From IMG/VR virus record IMGVR_UViG_3300044858_001358, positions 1 through 29,318 of that record: a stretch of 29,318 bases of DNA; one strand, written 5' to 3'. Shown here in pieces: positions 3,531 to 13,752 of this stretch. A program made the translations under genes and the position numbers. Positions within the stretch are counted from its first letter, which is position 1; every line of letters starts with the position of its first letter. The notes under the pieces are model-generated. The model did not search any database. It saw nothing but the letters and a program-made list of their open reading frames with translations, and was not told the DNA's origin. The stretch is from a virus.

Positions 3531-3968
3531 ATGCCAACAACAGGAATTTTTAACGGTACAAATCTAGTAGTTCTAGTAGGAAGTGAAGTAGTAGCTCATT
3601 CTACATCATGTTCTTTATCAGTAAGCGTTGACTTACCAGATTCAACAACTAAATCAAGCAATGGATGGGCTGATCAAATTGGTGGTTTAAAGTCTTGGTC
3701 TTTGACTACAGATGGTCTTGCAACAGTTGAGCCAACTGGAGCTAACTTTGTTGTAGGGGATATTTTTACACAATTAGCTAGTAGAACAGCAGTTACAGTT
3801 AAGTTTACAACTGTTTCAACAGGTAGTACTGTTGTTCCAGGTGACTTAGTTTGGTCTGGTCTTGCTTTTATCGAAAGTTTAGATGTTACTGCTGATATGG
3901 AATCTCCAGCAACATATTCAGTTTCATTTACAGGAACAGGAGCATTGACTCAAGCTCCTAACCCATAA
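3531..3968 (+). CDS. Major tail tube protein
   Basis: This 145-residue beta-rich, Ser/Thr-rich protein has the tail-tube pattern of TP901-1-type major tail proteins: an N-terminal strand GTNLVVLVG, CSLSVSVDLPDSTTK, a W-containing hairpin (GGLKSWSLTTDGLATV), a helix-like GDIFTQLASRTAVTVKF, and C-terminal ESLDVTADMESPATYSVSFTGTGAL. Hexamers would stack to form the tail tube. It precedes the tail-assembly chaperone and tape measure, as expected. The protein at 8657 carries the same fold with an insertion. Confidence 0.88.
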   Translation: MPTTGIFNGTNLVVLVGSEVVAHSTSCSLSVSVDLPDSTTKSSNGWADQIGGLKSWSLTTDGLATVEPTGANFVVGDIFTQLASRTAVTVKFTTVSTGSTVVPGDLVWSGLAFIESLDVTADMESPATYSVSFTGTGALTQAPNP

Positions 3969-4361: not shown

Positions 4362-4675
4362 AGTGGATTGATATTGAAAGATATACAATGGGGGAGTGCC
4401 AAGTGCTTCCCCATTTGTTTTGGGATATGACGATGGCTGAGTTAGATTTTGTTTGGTATGGTTACCGTCATAAAGAAGAACAAGAATGGTTAAGAGTAAG
4501 ATGGCAGACTACACTTTTAATCAATATTCAACTACCAAAGGGTAAAAAAGTTATGCCAGAAGAGCTTTTAAAGCTTGACTGCGATAATCGTAACTTTGTG
4601 AAACAAAGAGTAATGAGTAATGATGAATTACAAGAGGTACTAAAGAAATATAATAATGTTAAACCTATAGGATAA
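4355..4675 (+). CDS. Tail assembly chaperone, frameshifted extension (gpT-like part of gpGT)
   Basis: This is the -1-frame continuation of the gene at 3990; the full fusion would be 228 residues (122 zero-frame plus 106). An ATG at 4388 could start a separate 95-residue protein, but the coding sense continues upstream of it (LEWIDIERYT) right to the slippery run, favouring a fusion. The segment contains CQVLPHLFWDMTMAELDFV; 'FW.MT..E' is typical of the second tail-chaperone domain in siphophages. In lambda the T part recruits the major tail protein while G binds the tape measure. It ends in TAATG, coupling it to the tape-measure gene. Confidence 0.85.
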   Translation, partial: KLEWIDIERYTMGECQVLPHLFWDMTMAELDFVWYGYRHKEEQEWLRVRWQTTLLINIQLPKGKKVMPEELLKLDCDNRNFVKQRVMSNDELQEVLKKYNNVKPIG

Positions 4676-6651
4676 TGGCAGTAGAAGAATCAATTAAAAT
4701 TAAGATACAGGCAAACGCTGAAGAGTTCAAGATTGTATCTAATATTATTAATACAGAACTAGGAAAACTAGGTAAGAATTTTGAAATATTAGAAGGTAAT
4801 ATTAAGCAGACTTCTAATGCCATGAAAGGTTTTGATGGCTCATCTAAGAAGTTTAACAAAGGTATAATGAGTATCTCATTGATACTACAAGATTTACCTT
4901 ATGGTTTTAGAGGTATTCAAAATAACATCCCTGCATTAGCTCAGGGATTTGGTGTTTTATATTTAGCTGTATCTGCTGTTACAGCAGCAATGACATATTT
5001 TTTAATGCAGGGTGATAATATGTCTAAAGACACAAAGAAGATATATGAAACATTTAAAGAGTTTATTAATGGTGTGGTTAATCAGGTATATAATACATTA
5101 AAACCAGCGTTTGATTCAATAGTAAAATCAATCATGTTTTTATGGGATATGTTTGGAAACAATCTTATAAATCAGTTTAAATATATATGGGAAAATTTAT
5201 TAGCTTTTACTAAAATAGCTGGAAATATTTTAGCGGAAGCATTTAATTTGGTTACAAGTGTTATAAAGGGTGACTGGAGTAAATTTGGAGAATCTTTATT
5301 AAATATTTTTAAATATGCATGGAACGCTATAGTTCAATTTTTATCATTCAGTTTAAAAATGGTAGGAAATACTATAGGTGCTTTTACTCGAATATTTGAT
5401 AAAGATTTAGGTGACACAATAACCAAATCAACTGAATATACTGCTAATAAGTTTGCAGATAGTTTTAAGTTTGCATTTAAAGAAGTAGAAAAAGAAAGTA
5501 AGAAATTTGATATATTTTCTATTTTTGGTGGCAAAAAGAAAGGAGGGGATACAACTAAGGAATCATTTAAGGCTGATACTTCTAATTTAGATTTACTAAA
5601 AGCTCAAGAAAACTATTATAAAGATGATTTATTTATGCGTAGATATTACGCATTAGAGGTGCTTAAAGAAGAAGAGAAGTTAGCTTTAATGGAAGCTATT
5701 TTCAATAAATCAAGTATTGATACATTATCTAATATTGCAGAGCAGTTTAAAATTAAAAGACTTGCTATTGAAAAGTCTACTCTTGATGGTATTCAAGCTA
5801 TAAGAAATGATAATGCAAAAAGAAATGAAAAGTTTGAAAAAGATGAATTAGAGAGAGCTGAAAAGATACAAAAGGAACTACTAGATAGATCAGTATATTT
5901 TACTGAACAAAGAATAAAAGCTGTAAATACAGAAGCAGATGCTTCAATAAAAGCTAATAGAGGAAATTACCAAGCTCAAAAACAAGCGTTAGAAGAGGCT
6001 ATAGTAAAACTAGGTGTGTTTAGAATGGCAGGTATAGGTGGTGCAGAGGCTATGTTAAAATTAGACGAAGCTATTGGTAATAACAAAGCTAAGATTGAAG
6101 GTCTAATTGACCCTTTGGAAACTTTAAATCAGTCATTGCAAACTACATTTAATCAATTAAATATTGATTTATTAACAAACTTTGCTGATCAGATGGGAGC
6201 AATATTTGCTGGAGGTAAGTTTGATTTTAAACAATTAGGTAATATATTAGCAGATGGCTTATCTTCAATAGGTAAAGCCCTTATTGCTTTTGCAATTACT
6301 AATGGTGCTGCTATGAATTTGTTTAAAGACCCTAAAACCTGGCCTTTAGCTCTTGCTGCTGGTATTGCGGCAGTTGCAGCAGGTTCATTTTTAAGAAATT
6401 CAATGAATGAAAATAAAGCTACTGCATTTGCTAATGGTGGTATAGTTTCTGGACCAACTATGGGTCTTGTAGGTGAATATCCTGGTGCTCAAAATAACCC
6501 TGAGGTTATTGCACCTTTAGATAAATTAAAATCTATGATTGGTGGTGGAGGAGGTGGTACATTTGTACTTAGAGGTCAAGACCTTTTAGTATCAATCAAT
6601 AGAACTCAAAAATCATCTTTCCTTAAAGGTCAAAATATAAGTTTAGCATAA
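4675..6651 (+). CDS. Tape measure protein
   Basis: This 658-residue protein follows the chaperone, as tape measures do. It is helical with long charged coiled coils (about residues 300-440), Ala/Gly-rich hydrophobic stretches near residues 78-105 (NIPALAQGFGVLYLAVSAV) and 535-570 (LIAFAITNGAAMNLF, LALAAGIAAVAAGSFL), and a C-terminal region with a Gly run and the motif ANGGIVSGPTMGLVGEYPG, which is frequent in siphophage tape measures. It sets tail length and is ejected into the host envelope. At about 1.5 angstrom per residue it would give a tail near 100 nm (family rule of thumb). TAATG coupling exists at both ends. Confidence 0.88.
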   Translation: MAVEESIKIKIQANAEEFKIVSNIINTELGKLGKNFEILEGNIKQTSNAMKGFDGSSKKFNKGIMSISLILQDLPYGFRGIQNNIPALAQGFGVLYLAVSAVTAAMTYFLMQGDNMSKDTKKIYETFKEFINGVVNQVYNTLKPAFDSIVKSIMFLWDMFGNNLINQFKYIWENLLAFTKIAGNILAEAFNLVTSVIKGDWSKFGESLLNIFKYAWNAIVQFLSFSLKMVGNTIGAFTRIFDKDLGDTITKSTEYTANKFADSFKFAFKEVEKESKKFDIFSIFGGKKKGGDTTKESFKADTSNLDLLKAQENYYKDDLFMRRYYALEVLKEEEKLALMEAIFNKSSIDTLSNIAEQFKIKRLAIEKSTLDGIQAIRNDNAKRNEKFEKDELERAEKIQKELLDRSVYFTEQRIKAVNTEADASIKANRGNYQAQKQALEEAIVKLGVFRMAGIGGAEAMLKLDEAIGNNKAKIEGLIDPLETLNQSLQTTFNQLNIDLLTNFADQMGAIFAGGKFDFKQLGNILADGLSSIGKALIAFAITNGAAMNLFKDPKTWPLALAAGIAAVAAGSFLRNSMNENKATAFANGGIVSGPTMGLVGEYPGAQNNPEVIAPLDKLKSMIGGGGGGTFVLRGQDLLVSINRTQKSSFLKGQNISLA

Positions 6652-8633
6652 TGGCATACGGACTAAGATATACAATAACTCAAGCTCTAAGAGATGACAC
6701 TATTTTACAAGCTAGAATTTACGAAAAGGATTATACTCTTGCAGTAAAAAATTATGAAGCTATAAATATTAGTTTAGATTCTAACGCTAGTAATGATGAG
6801 CCTTTAGCTGGTATTATTTCCTCTCAATTAAATATATCTTTTTTAACAACAGAGGAAGATGGAGAAGAATTTCCTAGTCTATTGAGTTTTGATATTCGTA
6901 AATATTTTGTTAAACTATATAATGGAGAAAACCTATTATGGTGTGGGTTTTTATTTAACGATTATGTTTCAGTCCCTTTTACAACTGGTAATCTACAAGT
7001 TGATATACTAGCTATAGATGGATTGTCATTCTTAGAATATACTGATTTTATTTATGAAGAATCTTTAAGCATAAACTCAACTAATAGACTTATAGACGTT
7101 ATCGCTGAAACTTTAAACGTTATCAATTACCCAGACCCTATAGAATTACTTACTTCTTGTTCTTATTATGCAGAAGGTATGTTTGATAGAGGGGATGCTT
7201 CTGGGGATGAACCGTTTTCACAAACATATCAATATAGAAGAGATTTTGTAGGCTTAAATTATTATGATGTTTTAAATAATATTGTTAAATCTTTTGGGTG
7301 CAGATTATTTCAAAGCGATGGTAAATGGCAAATAATAGCTATTAATCAAATGGCTTTAAGTACAAGATATTTTACTAATTATGTTATTTATCCAACAGTA
7401 AGTAATGCAGGTAGTGGAACAATAGATAAAAATATAAGCATTGAACCATATCAAGAAGGTAACGTTCACTTTGTTAATAATTCTCAAAATAAAATAGTTA
7501 GAAAAGGCTATCCTAAAGTAATTGTAAAAGGTAACTTTAACTATGCAAATAACTATGTTCATAATGGTAATTTTAAAGGTTATTATAATATAGTAACTAC
7601 TCCACCATCAGTTTATCCTTTTCCTTATGGTTGGGATTATTTTACAAGTAGTACTCCAAATCAGATTTATGTAAATTTAACAATAGAAGATGATCTATCA
7701 TCTAATACATTAAGTATTCGGAAACCTATTGGAACAGGTACATATTCTCAAGTAGAAATGGGAGTACCTGTTTCTCCTTCTTTCCCACTATATTCATATT
7801 TGCCTTATATGAATGGTCCAGGTTTTAATATAAATTTTTCATATAGAATTGGTATTGGTGGCAGAAAAGCTAAAATGATTGTAATGATTACTAATCCTGC
7901 TACATCTATTACTTATTATTATAATAGTTCAAATGCATGGCAAACTGCTTATACTTTTATTGATATTAATAAAGTAGATGAAGAAAATTATTCTGATTAT
8001 TCCTTAAATGTTTTAATAAATACTCAAAACAGTCCAAGTGGAGCATCAGTTAAAGGATATGTTAAATTAAGGTTTTTAGTAGATGGTGGTACTCCGTTTC
8101 CTCAATATGAAGAAATAAGTTTAAGAAGTGTTTCTATAACACAAAACTATACAACAATAAGGTCAGTAGATGTAACTAGACAAGTAGGAACAGAAAATAC
8201 CACAATAAGAGAGATAGAGCAACCTTACGGAAGCTTTTTAAATAGTTTTGCAGTTAATAATAACGTAGGAAATCTAGTAAATTCTGCTGGTATTTCTTAT
8301 GAAAATTGGTATCGTTATCCTGATACTACTAATGTTTTTGAGTTATTGCCTATGCTTATAGCTAGACAATATTCTAACTTATTAAGTAAAAACTTTGGTA
8401 CACTAGAGGCGGATTTAGGATCGTTTAAAACTGCTAAAGGGTTAAACTATTTAGATAAAGTTTATACTATACAAGACTCACCGAATAATCCACTTTCTTA
8501 TAATGATAAAACGTTTTTGTTAAATAGAGGTAGCATACTCCCACAAGTTGACGAGGTAACCTCTTTTCAGCTAATAGAAATAACAAACCAGGATAATGAT
8601 TCTGTAGAAACCATAAAATATAACATACAGTAA
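6651..8633 (+). CDS. Tail tip/baseplate hub-like protein
   Basis: This 660-residue protein is coupled by TAATG to the tape measure. In siphophages this position holds the distal tail or tail-hub protein. The N-terminal 130 residues are beta-rich (LQARIYEKDYTLAVKNYE, QLNISFLTTEEDGEEFPSLL, NLLWCGFLFNDY), followed by LQVDILAIDGLSFLEY and a helical segment GLNYYDVLNNIVKSFGCRLFQSDGKWQIIAINQ (about 200-232) resembling the hub-type 'adhesin-like' domain common in Bacteroidota phages. The C-terminal half is a carbohydrate-binding-like beta domain with many aromatic residues, then a helix-strand end rich in polar residues. Exact assignment is from position and composition. Confidence 0.65.
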   Translation: MAYGLRYTITQALRDDTILQARIYEKDYTLAVKNYEAINISLDSNASNDEPLAGIISSQLNISFLTTEEDGEEFPSLLSFDIRKYFVKLYNGENLLWCGFLFNDYVSVPFTTGNLQVDILAIDGLSFLEYTDFIYEESLSINSTNRLIDVIAETLNVINYPDPIELLTSCSYYAEGMFDRGDASGDEPFSQTYQYRRDFVGLNYYDVLNNIVKSFGCRLFQSDGKWQIIAINQMALSTRYFTNYVIYPTVSNAGSGTIDKNISIEPYQEGNVHFVNNSQNKIVRKGYPKVIVKGNFNYANNYVHNGNFKGYYNIVTTPPSVYPFPYGWDYFTSSTPNQIYVNLTIEDDLSSNTLSIRKPIGTGTYSQVEMGVPVSPSFPLYSYLPYMNGPGFNINFSYRIGIGGRKAKMIVMITNPATSITYYYNSSNAWQTAYTFIDINKVDEENYSDYSLNVLINTQNSPSGASVKGYVKLRFLVDGGTPFPQYEEISLRSVSITQNYTTIRSVDVTRQVGTENTTIREIEQPYGSFLNSFAVNNNVGNLVNSAGISYENWYRYPDTTNVFELLPMLIARQYSNLLSKNFGTLEADLGSFKTAKGLNYLDKVYTIQDSPNNPLSYNDKTFLLNRGSILPQVDEVTSFQLIEITNQDNDSVETIKYNIQ

Positions 8634-8656
8634 AATAAAAGAATAAATTTATAATA

Positions 8657-9826
8657 ATGGCATCAGTAATAAACGGAACAAACATAGTACTATACTATAC
8701 AAACCCAAACCCAACCTTTTATTTTAATGGTTCTACTTCGGTAACCACCATTAGTGGTTTAAGCTATAAGCAATTTGGTTTACTTGATAGTAACGGAGTA
8801 GCTACAAACTTTACTAAAACCTCAGATGGTATAGTTGCAGGATTTATTACAGATGTACCAACATTATCAATACCTGCTGGTACTTGGACTTTTAATGCTT
8901 TTGCTTCAATAAGTGATGATTTGGTATCAGCACCTAGATTCTACTACCATATATACAAATACAATGGTACAACATTGACATCTATAGGAACTACAAACTC
9001 TATATTTTTTACACAACTAGCTGTTAAACAATACACACAAACATTTGCGTTTCCAGGTGCAACATTATTGTCAAATGAAAGAATAGTTATACAAGTGGTA
9101 GCAAGTCAGATTACTACAAAAACAATGACTTTCTATACACAAGGTTCAAATGATGCTTCGGCTATTACAACTATACCTACAACAATCCCATTTGGGGCAG
9201 CTACAAACTGCTCTTTTGAGGTTTCAGTAGATCAGAAGGAAGTAACATCTCAAAGTTCTGCTTGGTTTAAAGAGTTTAAGAATGACGTAGCTTCATGGTC
9301 TATCAATGCTGATGGCTTTGTTGCTTTAAGCGACTATTCTTATTTATTCTTAGCTAATCTTCAGTTGACAAGACAACCTATCTTAATTAAGTTCCAAGTG
9401 GATAATGACAATGGGGATGGTAGTGGTACTCTAGGATACTCAGTATTTACAGGATCAGCCAATTTAAGCTCACTTAGTTTAAGTGCAGGGGTAGAGGCAG
9501 CCTCAACATATAGCGTGTCACTACAAGGCTCTGGTGCGTATAATATAACAGGTACACAAGTTACTCCTGGTGGTGCAGTAGTAATAGAAACTTCAAATGT
9601 GATAATGTATCAATATACTGCTATTGGCGGTGAGACAACAGTAACCTTTGCAGGTGCAATAGGTGGAGTTTGCTTGTCAGTTACAAGAGGTGGTATGGAA
9701 GTTAGAACAATATTAACAACAGGTACTGCTACAGGTGATAATGTATTATTTAATGCTTCGACAGGAGTTGTTACCTTTGCTAGAGCTTTAGAGGCTGATG
9801 AGTTTGTTAGAATAATTGCTAAATAA
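8657..9826 (+). CDS. Chimeric tail protein: split tail-tube domain with inserted fibre domain
   Basis: In this 389-residue protein three blocks can be read. Residues 1-15 (INGTNIVLYY) and about 180-298 (SSAWFKEFKNDVASWSINAD... SLSAGVEAASTYSVSLQGSGAY) match the start and the remainder of the major tail protein at 3531 (FNGTNLVVLV; SWSLTTDGL; ESPATYSVSFTGTGAL). About 160 residues are inserted between them (20-178: IPAGTWTFNAF, FYYHIYKYNGTTLTSIG), and a related segment occurs at residues 55-215 of the 1301-residue fibre at 9847 (IPGGNFNCEF, FYAELYKYDGTTFTLLG). The C-terminal 85 residues are a separate beta domain (GGETTVTFAGAIGG). It is probably a tube- or tip-associated decoration protein. Confidence 0.7.
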   Translation: MASVINGTNIVLYYTNPNPTFYFNGSTSVTTISGLSYKQFGLLDSNGVATNFTKTSDGIVAGFITDVPTLSIPAGTWTFNAFASISDDLVSAPRFYYHIYKYNGTTLTSIGTTNSIFFTQLAVKQYTQTFAFPGATLLSNERIVIQVVASQITTKTMTFYTQGSNDASAITTIPTTIPFGAATNCSFEVSVDQKEVTSQSSAWFKEFKNDVASWSINADGFVALSDYSYLFLANLQLTRQPILIKFQVDNDNGDGSGTLGYSVFTGSANLSSLSLSAGVEAASTYSVSLQGSGAYNITGTQVTPGGAVVIETSNVIMYQYTAIGGETTVTFAGAIGGVCLSVTRGGMEVRTILTTGTATGDNVLFNASTGVVTFARALEADEFVRIIAK

Positions 9827-9846
9827 TAGTTAAAATTTATATATAA

Positions 9847-12800
9847 ATGAGTGCACAGTTACAGGTAACAGGGGAAGCAAAGATAAGGGACATACAAGGT
9901 CCAGTAGTGGCTAATAGTGGTGTAATAACTGCTTTGGATGGTGCTGCTTCTCAATATGTACGAGGGGATGGTACGTTAGCTGACTTTCCAACATCATCAG
10001 GTGGAGGAAGTTCGGTTTCTTATTATCTTAACTCAAGTGTTTCACAAGGTACAATAGGAGGTGTTGCATATAGAGAGTTAAATAAAGAACCAATCATAGG
10101 TGCTGGAACTGATATTGCTATTTCAACAACAGGATATGTAGCGAGTTATTTAACTGATGCTAACGACCCTGATGTATTATCAATTCCTGGCGGTAACTTT
10201 AATTGTGAGTTCTATTTTAGTGTTAGTAACGATACAGGTAATCCTTTTTTCTATGCAGAACTTTATAAGTACGATGGCACAACTTTTACCTTATTAGGTA
10301 GTAGCGTTGGAGTTCCTGAGTATATTAATCAAGGAACTATAATAGCACCTTACTATTTTGCTATTCCTGTCGCTACTGCTGCTTTAGCTTTAACGGATAG
10401 ATTGGCAATTAGAATCTATGTAAACGTAGATGGTAGAACAGTTACTTTACATACCGAGAATGGACATTTGTGTCAAGTAGTAACTACCCTATCTAAGGGG
10501 ATGGTTTCTTTAAATAACTTAACAGACCAATCACAGTTCTTAACCACAGGAACAAGCGGTACTGACTTTACTATCGCTTCAACTGGTGATACTCATACTT
10601 TTAACCTACCTATTGCTTCGGCTACAAATACAGGTAAGTTGAGTTCAACAGATTGGAGTACTTTTAATGCTAAACAAGCTGCATTATCATTTACTGCTCC
10701 TTTAGTTAACACAAGCAATACAATTTCAATACCTGTCGCTACAAATTTAGTAGATGGTTATTTAGACAATACTGATTGGACAACATTTAATAATAAGCAA
10801 AACGCTATTACTTTAACTACAACAGGTACAAGCGGAGCAGCTACATTAGTTGGTGCTACTTTAAACATACCACAATATCAAGGGGTTTTAACTAACCCTG
10901 TAACAGGTACAGGTACAACAAACACTTTACCTAAGTTTACAGGTGCTTCTACAATAGGTAATAGTAATATTACAGATAGTGGTTCTTTGATTACTTTAGG
11001 TTCTAATACAAGACTTAATGGAAGTCTATGGTTAAATACTACTCAAACCAATATGGGACTTGCCAATTATGTAAATATGACAGGTTCAACATCTGTATAT
11101 GGACAAATGAATGCAGGTATAATCCAAAGTGATGCAACAGTAAATGGCTTTTATTATGATACTTTTGCTCAAACTGCTGCTGCATCTTTTACATTAGGCA
11201 ATTTAGTATATTATAGAGCATATCAAGGTACTTTTGGTGCAGGTTCAACAGTTACTTTACAAACAGGTTTTGAGGTTAATAGTACTTTAATAGGAGCAAC
11301 AACAAATTATGGATTTAGAGGCAGGATAGCAAGTGGTACAAATCGTTGGAATCTATATATGGATGGTACTGCTAATAATCATATCGCAGGTTCATTAGGT
11401 ATTGGTACTACAAGTTTTGTTTTTGGTGGTGGAACTTACAACTTAAACTTAACTAAAAATATAACAGGTACAGTTGTAGCAGGTGCAATGAATATAGGTA
11501 GTATAGTTAATTCGGATGTTACAAGTGCAGCTATTGGATTAAATGTTCAAGTTACAACTGCTGCTGCTGCATTCACTTTAAATCAGTTAAGACATATAAG
11601 TGTAAACCAAACTACTTTAGGTGCAGGTTCATCAGTTTCAAATCAATATGGTGTTTATGTAGACCAAATAACTAATGGTTCAAGTAACTTTGGATTCTTT
11701 GGTAATATACCTGCAGGAACAAATAGATGGAACATCTATATGGATGGTTCAGCTAATAACTATATGGCAGGTTCATTGGGAATAGGTAGTACTTTATTAA
11801 CAGGATATAATTTAAGAATTACTAAAAACTTAACAGGTGCTACAAGTACACATTCTGTAATGGTTGATGGTGCAATTCAAACAGATTCTACAAACTATGG
11901 TGCAGGATTTCGTTCATCTGTATCTTTAGCTGCAAGTGCTACAACAACAAGTTTGATTCATTATCTTGTTATTCAAGGTTCATTTGGAGCAAGTAGTTCT
12001 GCAACAAATCAAATGGGATATTGGGTTGAAAACCTTACAGGTGCTACTAACAATTACGGATTTTATGGTAATATAGTTGCAGGTGCTAATAGATGGAATT
12101 TGTATATGAATGGTACTGCTAATAACCATTTAGGAGGCTCATTAGGCATAGGTACTACAAGTTTGACAGGAATTAATTTAAGAATAAGCAAAACAATTAC
12201 AGGTGCTACAACTGCTTATGGTATATTACAACAAGGTATAGTTCAAAGTGATGTAACTACAACTGCTTTTGGTTATTATAACGAAATAGGCACACAAGCC
12301 GCTGCTTTTACTTTAACTAATTATAGACACTTTTTTGCTACTGCAAGTACAATTGGTGCAGGTTCAGCGGTAACGAATCAAGTTGGTTTCTTTGCATCTG
12401 CAACATTAACAGGTGGAACTAATAACTATGGCTTTCAAGGTTCAATACCTGCAGGTACTAATAGATGGAATATCTATATGGATGGAACTGCTGCTAATTA
12501 TTTAGCAGGAGTATTAAACATAGGAACAACTACATTATCGGGATTCACTTTAGATGTAAATGGTACTGCAAGGGTTACAGGTAATGTGGGAATTGGAACA
12601 ACTTCTATTAATGCAAGATTAGAATCTGCATTATCAACATCAAATGGAGTGTCAGTAAGTTTAAGAATAACAAATTCATCTGCTGCTTCTGCAAGTCCAG
12701 GTCAAGGCGTACAAATGGATTTTGTAAATGATAATGGATTTAATGCATCAGTTTCTTCAAGTGCGATTAGGAGTATAACTACAAGCACTGCTAATGGTGG

Positions 12801-13752
12801 TGCAGATTTATTATTTTTAAATTATAATGGTTCTGCTCTTACTGAGTATATGAGAATTTCAAGACTTGGTAGTGTGGGTATTGGTACAACATCTTTAACA
12901 GGATTTAATTTATCTGTAGCAAAAAATATTACAGGTGGTTCAACCTCTTATGGTATTTCTTCTAGTGGTGCAGTACAATCAGATGTAACAGGACAAGCTA
13001 ATTATTTTATATCATCTGCATCAACTGCTGCAACAACATTTACGCTTCCAAATTTATATCATTATAGAACATTTCAAGGTACGTTTGGTGCAGGTTCAAC
13101 AGTTACTAATCAATTTGGATATTTGGCAGATAGTTCATTAACAGGAGCAACCAATAACTATGGATTCTACGGCAATATCCCAAGTGGCACTAACAGATGG
13201 AACTTGTATATGGCAGGAACGGCTGCTAACTTTTTATCGGGAGTATTAAACATAGGTACGACAACTTTATCAGGATATAAACTTGATGTTAATGGTACTG
13301 CAAGATTTGCAGGTAATAGTGTTTTTTTTCAAAATACAGCAGGAGCAGCAGGCACAGGATATGCAATGGAATTTGCAACAAATTCTTTAATACCTAGAGT
13401 TGATTTTGTTGTAAATGGCGCATACGTTGGGCAATTTTCAGCATTAGGTACTGATATGCGTTTTGTAAATACTACAACAGGGAATTTATTATTTATTACA
13501 AGTGCCAATCAAGAAAGAGCAAGAATAACAAGTGGAGGTTCTTTTGGTATTGGTACAGGTTCATCAATAAACGCTTCTGCTAAAGTACAAGTAGATTCAA
13601 CTACTCAAGGCTTCTTACCACCAAGAATGACTGCTGCTCAAAGGGCTGCAATAGCATCACCAGCAACAGGCTTAATAGTATATCAAACTGATGGTACTGA
13701 AGGTGTGTATGTGTATAGTGGTGGTACTTGGAAATCTCTAACAATGGTATAA
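9847..13752 (+). CDS. Long repetitive tail fibre
   Basis: This 1301-residue protein is the largest in the window. It begins with a short attachment-like stretch, then the approximately 160-residue beta domain shared with the protein at 8657, then a Gly/Thr/Asn-rich shaft containing TGTSGTDF, STDWSTFNAKQ and DNTDWTTFNNKQ repeats. From about residue 380 it is built of a roughly 125-residue repeat, each ending in G-NR-NRWN-YM-G-N--GSLGIGTTS. The C-terminus (QGFLPPRMTAAQRAAI... GLIVYQTDGTEGVYVYSGG.W) is a module often found at the end of Bacteroidota phage fibres and host adhesins. It is likely to form a trimeric fibre contacting the host surface. No S74 chaperone domain is seen. Confidence 0.85.
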   Translation: MSAQLQVTGEAKIRDIQGPVVANSGVITALDGAASQYVRGDGTLADFPTSSGGGSSVSYYLNSSVSQGTIGGVAYRELNKEPIIGAGTDIAISTTGYVASYLTDANDPDVLSIPGGNFNCEFYFSVSNDTGNPFFYAELYKYDGTTFTLLGSSVGVPEYINQGTIIAPYYFAIPVATAALALTDRLAIRIYVNVDGRTVTLHTENGHLCQVVTTLSKGMVSLNNLTDQSQFLTTGTSGTDFTIASTGDTHTFNLPIASATNTGKLSSTDWSTFNAKQAALSFTAPLVNTSNTISIPVATNLVDGYLDNTDWTTFNNKQNAITLTTTGTSGAATLVGATLNIPQYQGVLTNPVTGTGTTNTLPKFTGASTIGNSNITDSGSLITLGSNTRLNGSLWLNTTQTNMGLANYVNMTGSTSVYGQMNAGIIQSDATVNGFYYDTFAQTAAASFTLGNLVYYRAYQGTFGAGSTVTLQTGFEVNSTLIGATTNYGFRGRIASGTNRWNLYMDGTANNHIAGSLGIGTTSFVFGGGTYNLNLTKNITGTVVAGAMNIGSIVNSDVTSAAIGLNVQVTTAAAAFTLNQLRHISVNQTTLGAGSSVSNQYGVYVDQITNGSSNFGFFGNIPAGTNRWNIYMDGSANNYMAGSLGIGSTLLTGYNLRITKNLTGATSTHSVMVDGAIQTDSTNYGAGFRSSVSLAASATTTSLIHYLVIQGSFGASSSATNQMGYWVENLTGATNNYGFYGNIVAGANRWNLYMNGTANNHLGGSLGIGTTSLTGINLRISKTITGATTAYGILQQGIVQSDVTTTAFGYYNEIGTQAAAFTLTNYRHFFATASTIGAGSAVTNQVGFFASATLTGGTNNYGFQGSIPAGTNRWNIYMDGTAANYLAGVLNIGTTTLSGFTLDVNGTARVTGNVGIGTTSINARLESALSTSNGVSVSLRITNSSAASASPGQGVQMDFVNDNGFNASVSSSAIRSITTSTANGGADLLFLNYNGSALTEYMRISRLGSVGIGTTSLTGFNLSVAKNITGGSTSYGISSSGAVQSDVTGQANYFISSASTAATTFTLPNLYHYRTFQGTFGAGSTVTNQFGYLADSSLTGATNNYGFYGNIPSGTNRWNLYMAGTAANFLSGVLNIGTTTLSGYKLDVNGTARFAGNSVFFQNTAGAAGTGYAMEFATNSLIPRVDFVVNGAYVGQFSALGTDMRFVNTTTGNLLFITSANQERARITSGGSFGIGTGSSINASAKVQVDSTTQGFLPPRMTAAQRAAIASPATGLIVYQTDGTEGVYVYSGGTWKSLTMV
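11335..13260 (+). repeat. Approximately 366-381 bp coding tandem repeats in fibre gene
   Basis: The phrase beginning G-(T/A)-N-R-W-N starts at 11335, 11716, 12082, 12454 and 13186. Spacings are 381, 366, 372 and 732 (twice 366) bp. Each unit reads roughly: LxITKxITGAT, QSDVT, AAxFTLxNxxHY, GTFGAGSxVTNQxG, LTGATNNYGFxGNIPAGTNRWN. The double spacing between the fourth and fifth copies is filled partly by a different block (residues about 915-1010, GVQMDFVNDNG and GGADLLFLNYNG) inserted within the repeat array. Confidence 0.9.

Follow-up and report, generated by a model that had tools for sequence, protein, structure and literature searches.

The viral record IMGVR_UViG_3300044858_001358 raises the question of how one tail protein can resemble both a tube subunit and a fibre, and of what such a protein would do. 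The window, by which we mean the whole stretch of DNA analysed (29,318 nucleotides, positions 1 to 29,318 of the record), carries the gene concerned between those of a hub and a long fibre. The features needed to follow the argument are:

3531..3968, plus strand: major tail (tube) protein of 145 residues, the paralogue (PF06199, E 1.1e-8; phrog_1407, E 9.1e-24)
4675..6651, plus strand: tape measure protein (phrog_1272 and phrog_167)
6651..8633, plus strand: Tal/gp27-like hub of 660 residues (model pTM 0.85; matches to Mu gp44, the MuSo2 43-kDa tail protein and a monocin tip entry chain, and also to CBM folds)
8657..9826, plus strand: tube-paralogue open reading frame of 389 residues with an ATG start, between the hub and the fibre
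8657..8695, plus strand: residues 1-13, first tube strand and 5' half of the interrupted tube fold (resembles the N-terminus of the major tail protein; insert-free homologues start in the same way and continue directly into the core)
8705..9190, plus strand: residues 17-178, inserted jelly-roll domain, allele A (homology to fibre residues 55-220; missing from homologues of 234-236 residues; pLDDT about 90; jelly-roll matches)
9191..9550, plus strand: residues 179-298, rest of the tube fold, including the region aligned with the inter-ring loop of the major tail protein (PF06199, phrog_1407, 8qhs and the major tail protein family)
9551..9826, plus strand: residues 299-389 and stop, C-terminal domain, which the major tail protein does not have (conserved in complete relatives with and without the insert; pLDDT mostly 70-90)
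9847..13752, plus strand: long tail fibre of 1301 residues (phrog_5454, tail fibre; cyanophage fibre repeats)
10009..10506, plus strand: fibre residues 55-220, a domain of the same family as the insert (own-genome match, HMM cross-matches, invariant positions)

Used as a query against the genome of the window itself, the 389-residue protein finds three places only: its own gene, the fibre (10015-10494; 31% identity over residues 19-174, E 9.5e-17) and the major tail protein, MTP (3591-3947; 33% identity over residues 179-295, E 3.6e-11). The first tube strand, MASVINGTNIVLY, has the counterpart GIFNGTNLVVLVG in the MTP. The Pfam family PF06199 (Phage_tail_2, the TP901-1-type tube protein) matches residues 183-295 with 24.7 bits (curated cut-off 23.8), a match confined to the part behind the insert, and the match to phrog_1407 (major tail protein) begins just before the insert ends. 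Moreover, an HMM of the MTP family scores 50.3 bits with the 8657 protein, shuffled copies of which reach at most 6.9, and the tube-paralogue cores and the MTPs align profile to profile over 117 columns (E 1e-15). Two solved tube proteins match the core, and a profile built from the 8657 family only finds one of monocin, 8qhs (E 3.8e-5). The initial annotation had held that the protein begins and ends like the MTP, and sequence comparison confirms residues 1-13 and 179-298 as a paralogue of the MTP at 3531; the tube part ends near residue 298, and residues 299-389 form a further domain that had been missed. The resemblance of about 160 middle residues to the fibre, also proposed there, stands as well, with bounds corrected to 17-178 for the insert and 55-220 for the fibre. 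An HMM built solely from tube-side inserts scores 90.3 bits with the window fibre, against 9.4 for the best of 2000 shuffled window proteins, and the reverse comparison, from the fibre side to the insert, gives 86.6 bits against 10.8 for shuffles.

The domain is a true insertion because relatives carry the same protein without it. A survey of related phages had been suggested at the outset, and it was made in two scans of viral contigs, the first giving 80 relatives and the second, with the core alone as query, more than 500, of which the best 80 were kept. Homologues with and without the insert at one and the same site were recovered. In the insert-free copies (L058, L066-L069, L071, L072, L078 and L079), the same gene codes for 234-236 residues, and a short turn (about 10 residues) joins the first strand to the core (PFGAATNCSF...), which is followed by the same C-terminal domain. 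These junctions were read directly from the sequences, the MAFFT alignment having misplaced the N-terminus of the insert-free forms. Among the best 80 of the more than 500 relatives from the core scan, complete copies come in two sizes, the core starting either at about residue 24 or, behind one copy of the domain, at residue 178-183. Both scans together give about 100 distinct sequences, among which the insert is present in 74 and missing in about 26, numbers that favour near relatives and are not a frequency; other insertion positions or other inserted domains were not seen among them. The comparison thus confirms that the domain of about 160 residues (17-178) sits between what correspond to tube strands β1 and β2.

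Core and insert have followed separate histories in these relatives. The core of the insert-free L066 is 99% identical to that of the window in amino acids and 96% in DNA, and L023 combines a core 97% identical with an insert only 36% identical (51% in DNA). The opposite combination is found in L047, with 55% identity in the core and 77% in the insert. In all, 52 pairs have cores at least 95% and inserts at most 50% identical, and 56 pairs have cores at most 60% and inserts at least 70% identical. Alleles were assigned by identity to reference alleles, short motifs having left 13 sequences unassigned. Insert-free, allele A, allele B and allele C forms make up a natural series, in which several forms sit on almost the same scaffold. 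At least four changes in insert presence are required on the core tree, an approximate count given the weak support of the shallow branches. The insert therefore behaves, as judged from its presence or absence and from the swap of divergent alleles, as an exchangeable cassette. As for how it is exchanged, the DNA sequences of the window and L023 converge sharply where the insert ends, being almost the same from there on, and they share 87% identity over the first 39 bases of the gene, which fits homologous recombination in the conserved flanking tube sequence as the probable mechanism.

In the sampled loci, the domain occurs mainly in two proteins, the tube paralogue and long downstream fibre-like proteins, where it lies near the N-terminus and starts mostly at residue 54-55, 142 or 226. 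Identity between the tube-side and the fibre-side copies is 24-43%, a branch with 99% support separates the two kinds, and an insert is no closer to the fibre copy of its own genome (28-36% identity) than to the fibres of other genomes. Insert and fibre copies are therefore old paralogues by their sequences, forming two old branches. A recent copy of the domain from the phage's own fibre is ruled out by the low within-genome identity and by the tube/fibre split. The initial annotation, which saw a fibre or adhesion domain inserted into a duplicated tube protein, was thus right as to the paralogue, the shared domain and, from the insert-free homologues, the insertion; a recent origin of the domain in the phage's own fibre finds no support.

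An AlphaFold2 model of the whole protein gives a pLDDT of about 90 for the insert, mostly 70-90 for the C-terminal domain and below 50 for the tube core, the last probably a consequence of how little the core varies in most of the relatives used for the model. With such a core model, the tube fold and the ring geometry are matters that we infer, and the tube assignment of the core draws on the sequence profiles. The confident model of the insert has the jelly-roll or β-sandwich fold characteristic of CBMs. Its Foldseek matches include jelly-rolls of CBM4, CBM16, CBM22, TNF and CocE/NonD hydrolases, so that the fold is not specific to CBMs, and no Pfam family, including those of recognised CBMs, matches the insert at E 0.1 or better. 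In a library of viral structures, the best match, at 46% identity, is a "major tail protein TP901-1" of an uncultured phage; next come uncharacterised or fibre-like proteins, several of which are named S74, collagen or C1q. Jelly-rolls serve also as structural or trimerisation domains, so the fold alone leaves glycan binding by the insert a prediction. In a review of tube structures (PMC8718954), the β1-β2 loop lies on the outside, in contact with the outer Ig domain of lambda or with the T6SS sheath, and a domain inserted there would consequently face outward.

The neighbourhood of the gene is largely stable. Where the flanking DNA suffices, most relatives keep the order hub, tube paralogue, fibre, with one or two genes separating the paralogue from the fibre in some, and the window has no separate Dit gene between tape measure and hub. 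The hub at 6651-8633 also matches CBM4/CBM16/CBM61 folds and may carry a CBM-like domain of its own. Hub alleles of the relatives diverge strongly (24-98% identity), and one hub type occurs with different insert alleles. The window fibre (9847-13752) has several similar repeats, for example GFxGNIPAGTNRWNLYMDGTANN, and its residues from about 400 to 1150 match cyanophage fibre proteins such as those of S-TIM5. Variants of the arrangement were also encountered. Two tandem tube-paralogue genes without insert (132 and 205 residues) follow the hub in L082 (4470-5496) and L083 (5679-6705), with no long fibre gene directly behind them. Extra genes for about 575 and 123 residues lie between tube paralogue and fibre in L066 (8659-10386) and L015 (9184-10914), and in these two the fibre domain is found at residues 142-307 instead of 55-220. 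Finally, L019 has a tube paralogue shortened to 302 residues by loss of the C-terminal domain (7393-8301) and a fibre split across several frames (8357-10959), both possibly due to sequencing-error frameshifts.

The host is likely a member of the Bacteroidota, given the capsid, hub and MAG-contig matches and the leaders of the genes. The capsid is matched best by Flavobacterium phage 11b and Cellulophaga phage phi10:1 (35%), and the hub is distantly related to that of Cellulophaga phage phi39:1. Among 84,980 prokaryote genomes, an alignment of the domain finds only three Bacteroidota MAG contigs (Flavobacteriales/Chitinophaga), possibly phage-derived, and one of the whole protein finds no relative. 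The window genes have A/T-rich leaders with no clear Shine-Dalgarno motif. The 8657 protein has no match among 50,697 isolated-phage records, and no named isolate with the gene was found. In phage phi39:1, the tail genes that were compared include none for a paralogue of this kind, and a tip ring of this kind would hence not be a universal part of the tip.

The reading that we prefer is that of a specialised ring at the tail tip, which fits the position of the gene next to that of the Tal-like hub, and the whole model, in which such a ring presents a host-binding domain that can be exchanged, seems to us fairly probable. According to this model, the old tube-protein paralogue would form a ring, probably hexameric, at the far end of a tail of siphophage type, beside the Tal-like hub and the fibre. 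Its outward-facing β1-β2 loop would bear a jelly-roll of the family used also near the fibre N-terminus. The ring would thereby present domains around the tail tip, probably for weak, many-copy binding of host surface glycans that would help the fibre, and recombination in the conserved flanking tube sequence would allow the domain to be gained, lost or exchanged with the ring unchanged.

Three other explanations have to be weighed against this model. That the similarities arose by chance among low-complexity, threonine- and serine-rich tail proteins might be suspected from the richness of the compared proteins in T, S, G and N. However, shuffles of equal composition score at most 6.9-10.8 bits as against 50-90 for the real matches, and invariant positions persist in both tube and fibre copies. 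With these controls and the near-identical cores of insert-free and insert-bearing homologues, chance is refuted and keeps a practically negligible probability. The 8657 protein could instead be a minor tube subunit, a paralogue mixed into the MTP or alternating with it, whose inserts would decorate the whole shaft like the MTP extensions of 936 phages. Its core can indeed be aligned with the MTP over the full length, the region of the inter-ring loop is kept, and MTP decorations of such a kind exist (PMC6669499). We nevertheless hold this to be unlikely: the gene adjoins those of the hub and the fibre and is distant from the MTP gene, identity to the MTP is only about 29%, and the loop region is conserved in a different way, suggesting another neighbour in the assembled tail.

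A structural adaptor would also place the ring at the tip, linking hub and fibre. The jelly-roll would then dock or stiffen without binding the host, and the shared domain would be the contact between ring and fibre. The occurrence of one domain family in both the ring and the region near the fibre N-terminus agrees with such a role, as do the trimers that TNF-like jelly-rolls can form, TNF folds being among the Foldseek matches. Yet the two copies have no obligatory link: some fibres bear the domain although the ring gene has no insert, and some genes with the insert are followed by long proteins without the domain. Allele divergence on rings that are nearly identical is, in addition, more typical of a surface-exposed part that interacts with the host than of an internal contact, and the adaptor seems to us rather improbable. 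If the preferred tip ring is extended beyond the window, the tube paralogue would serve as tip ring in a large group of uncultured siphophages, probably infecting Bacteroidota, with its β1-β2 loop as a dedicated socket. There, jelly-roll adhesins from a single family, to which the fibre domain also belongs, would be swapped, replaced or removed by recombination, tuning adsorption independently of hub and fibre. On this wider claim we see the chances for and against as evenly balanced.

Among known systems, the closest in function is the evolved Dit of 936 lactococcal, Lactobacillus and streptococcal siphophages, in which CBM insertions are optional (PMC7291167). Host binding is known both for such insertions in Dit and for CBM extensions of the MTP (PMC6669499, PMC10688798), and when recombinant skunaviruses were given an evolved Dit, their infectivity on an EPS-bearing host was fully restored (PMC10688798). 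Dit is a ring protein of the tip with a tube-like ring domain, as the 8657 protein would be on the preferred reading; the genes of both adjoin a Tal-like hub gene, and in both proteins a CBM-type insert is present or absent among close relatives (PMC7291167, PMC10688798), as seen here in the 99% identical core of L066 without the insert and in a jelly-roll with CBM matches. On the tip-ring reading, the 8657 protein would work like an evolved Dit. It is not classed as one because it differs in both gene position and insertion site: the Dit gene lies between tape measure and Tal, whereas the 8657 gene comes after that of the hub in the window and its relatives, and the insertion in an evolved Dit is carried by a second domain of galectin or OB type, the CBMs being in loops of the galectin domain, whereas this insert is within a tube-type domain, between β1 and β2 as read from the insert-free homologues. 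Moreover, the scaffold is here a paralogue of the tube protein, and the inserted domain belongs to another sequence family, common to the fibre.

Extra surface domains on tube-fold proteins are likewise known from the MTP/TpeX extensions of 936 phages, where the MTP extensions bear CBMs and those of TpeX bind host cells (PMC6669499), and from the Ig/FN3 domains of the lambda, SPP1 and T5 tube proteins. Those additions are C-terminal, partly frameshifted and on the main tube protein, whereas the present one is internal and in a separate paralogue. The closest internal insertion is domain2 of the YSD1 tube protein (YSD1_22), a β-sandwich inserted inside the tube fold (PMC8718954), which is placed between helix α1 and strand β4 and packs against a neighbouring subunit, unlike the variable and optional domain in the β1-β2 loop described here. 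The monocin (LmaA/antigen A, PDB 8qhs) and TP901-1-type tube proteins (PF06199) match residues 179-298; their matches to the 8657 protein begin only after the insert, and the latter has an added C-terminal domain. No description of this arrangement was found in the literature searched, which covered few subscription journals. The principle of CBM decoration is already known, and what appears new is the scaffold, a tube paralogue with a different insertion site, in probable Bacteroidota phages. The phages in which CBM decorations of Dit and MTP were reported infect Gram-positive dairy bacteria, and the principle would be extended to a large uncultured group. With the series of insert-free, A, B and C forms one could test directly whether decorations of this kind determine host range, and the series marks a site in a tube-fold protein where nature tolerates insertion.
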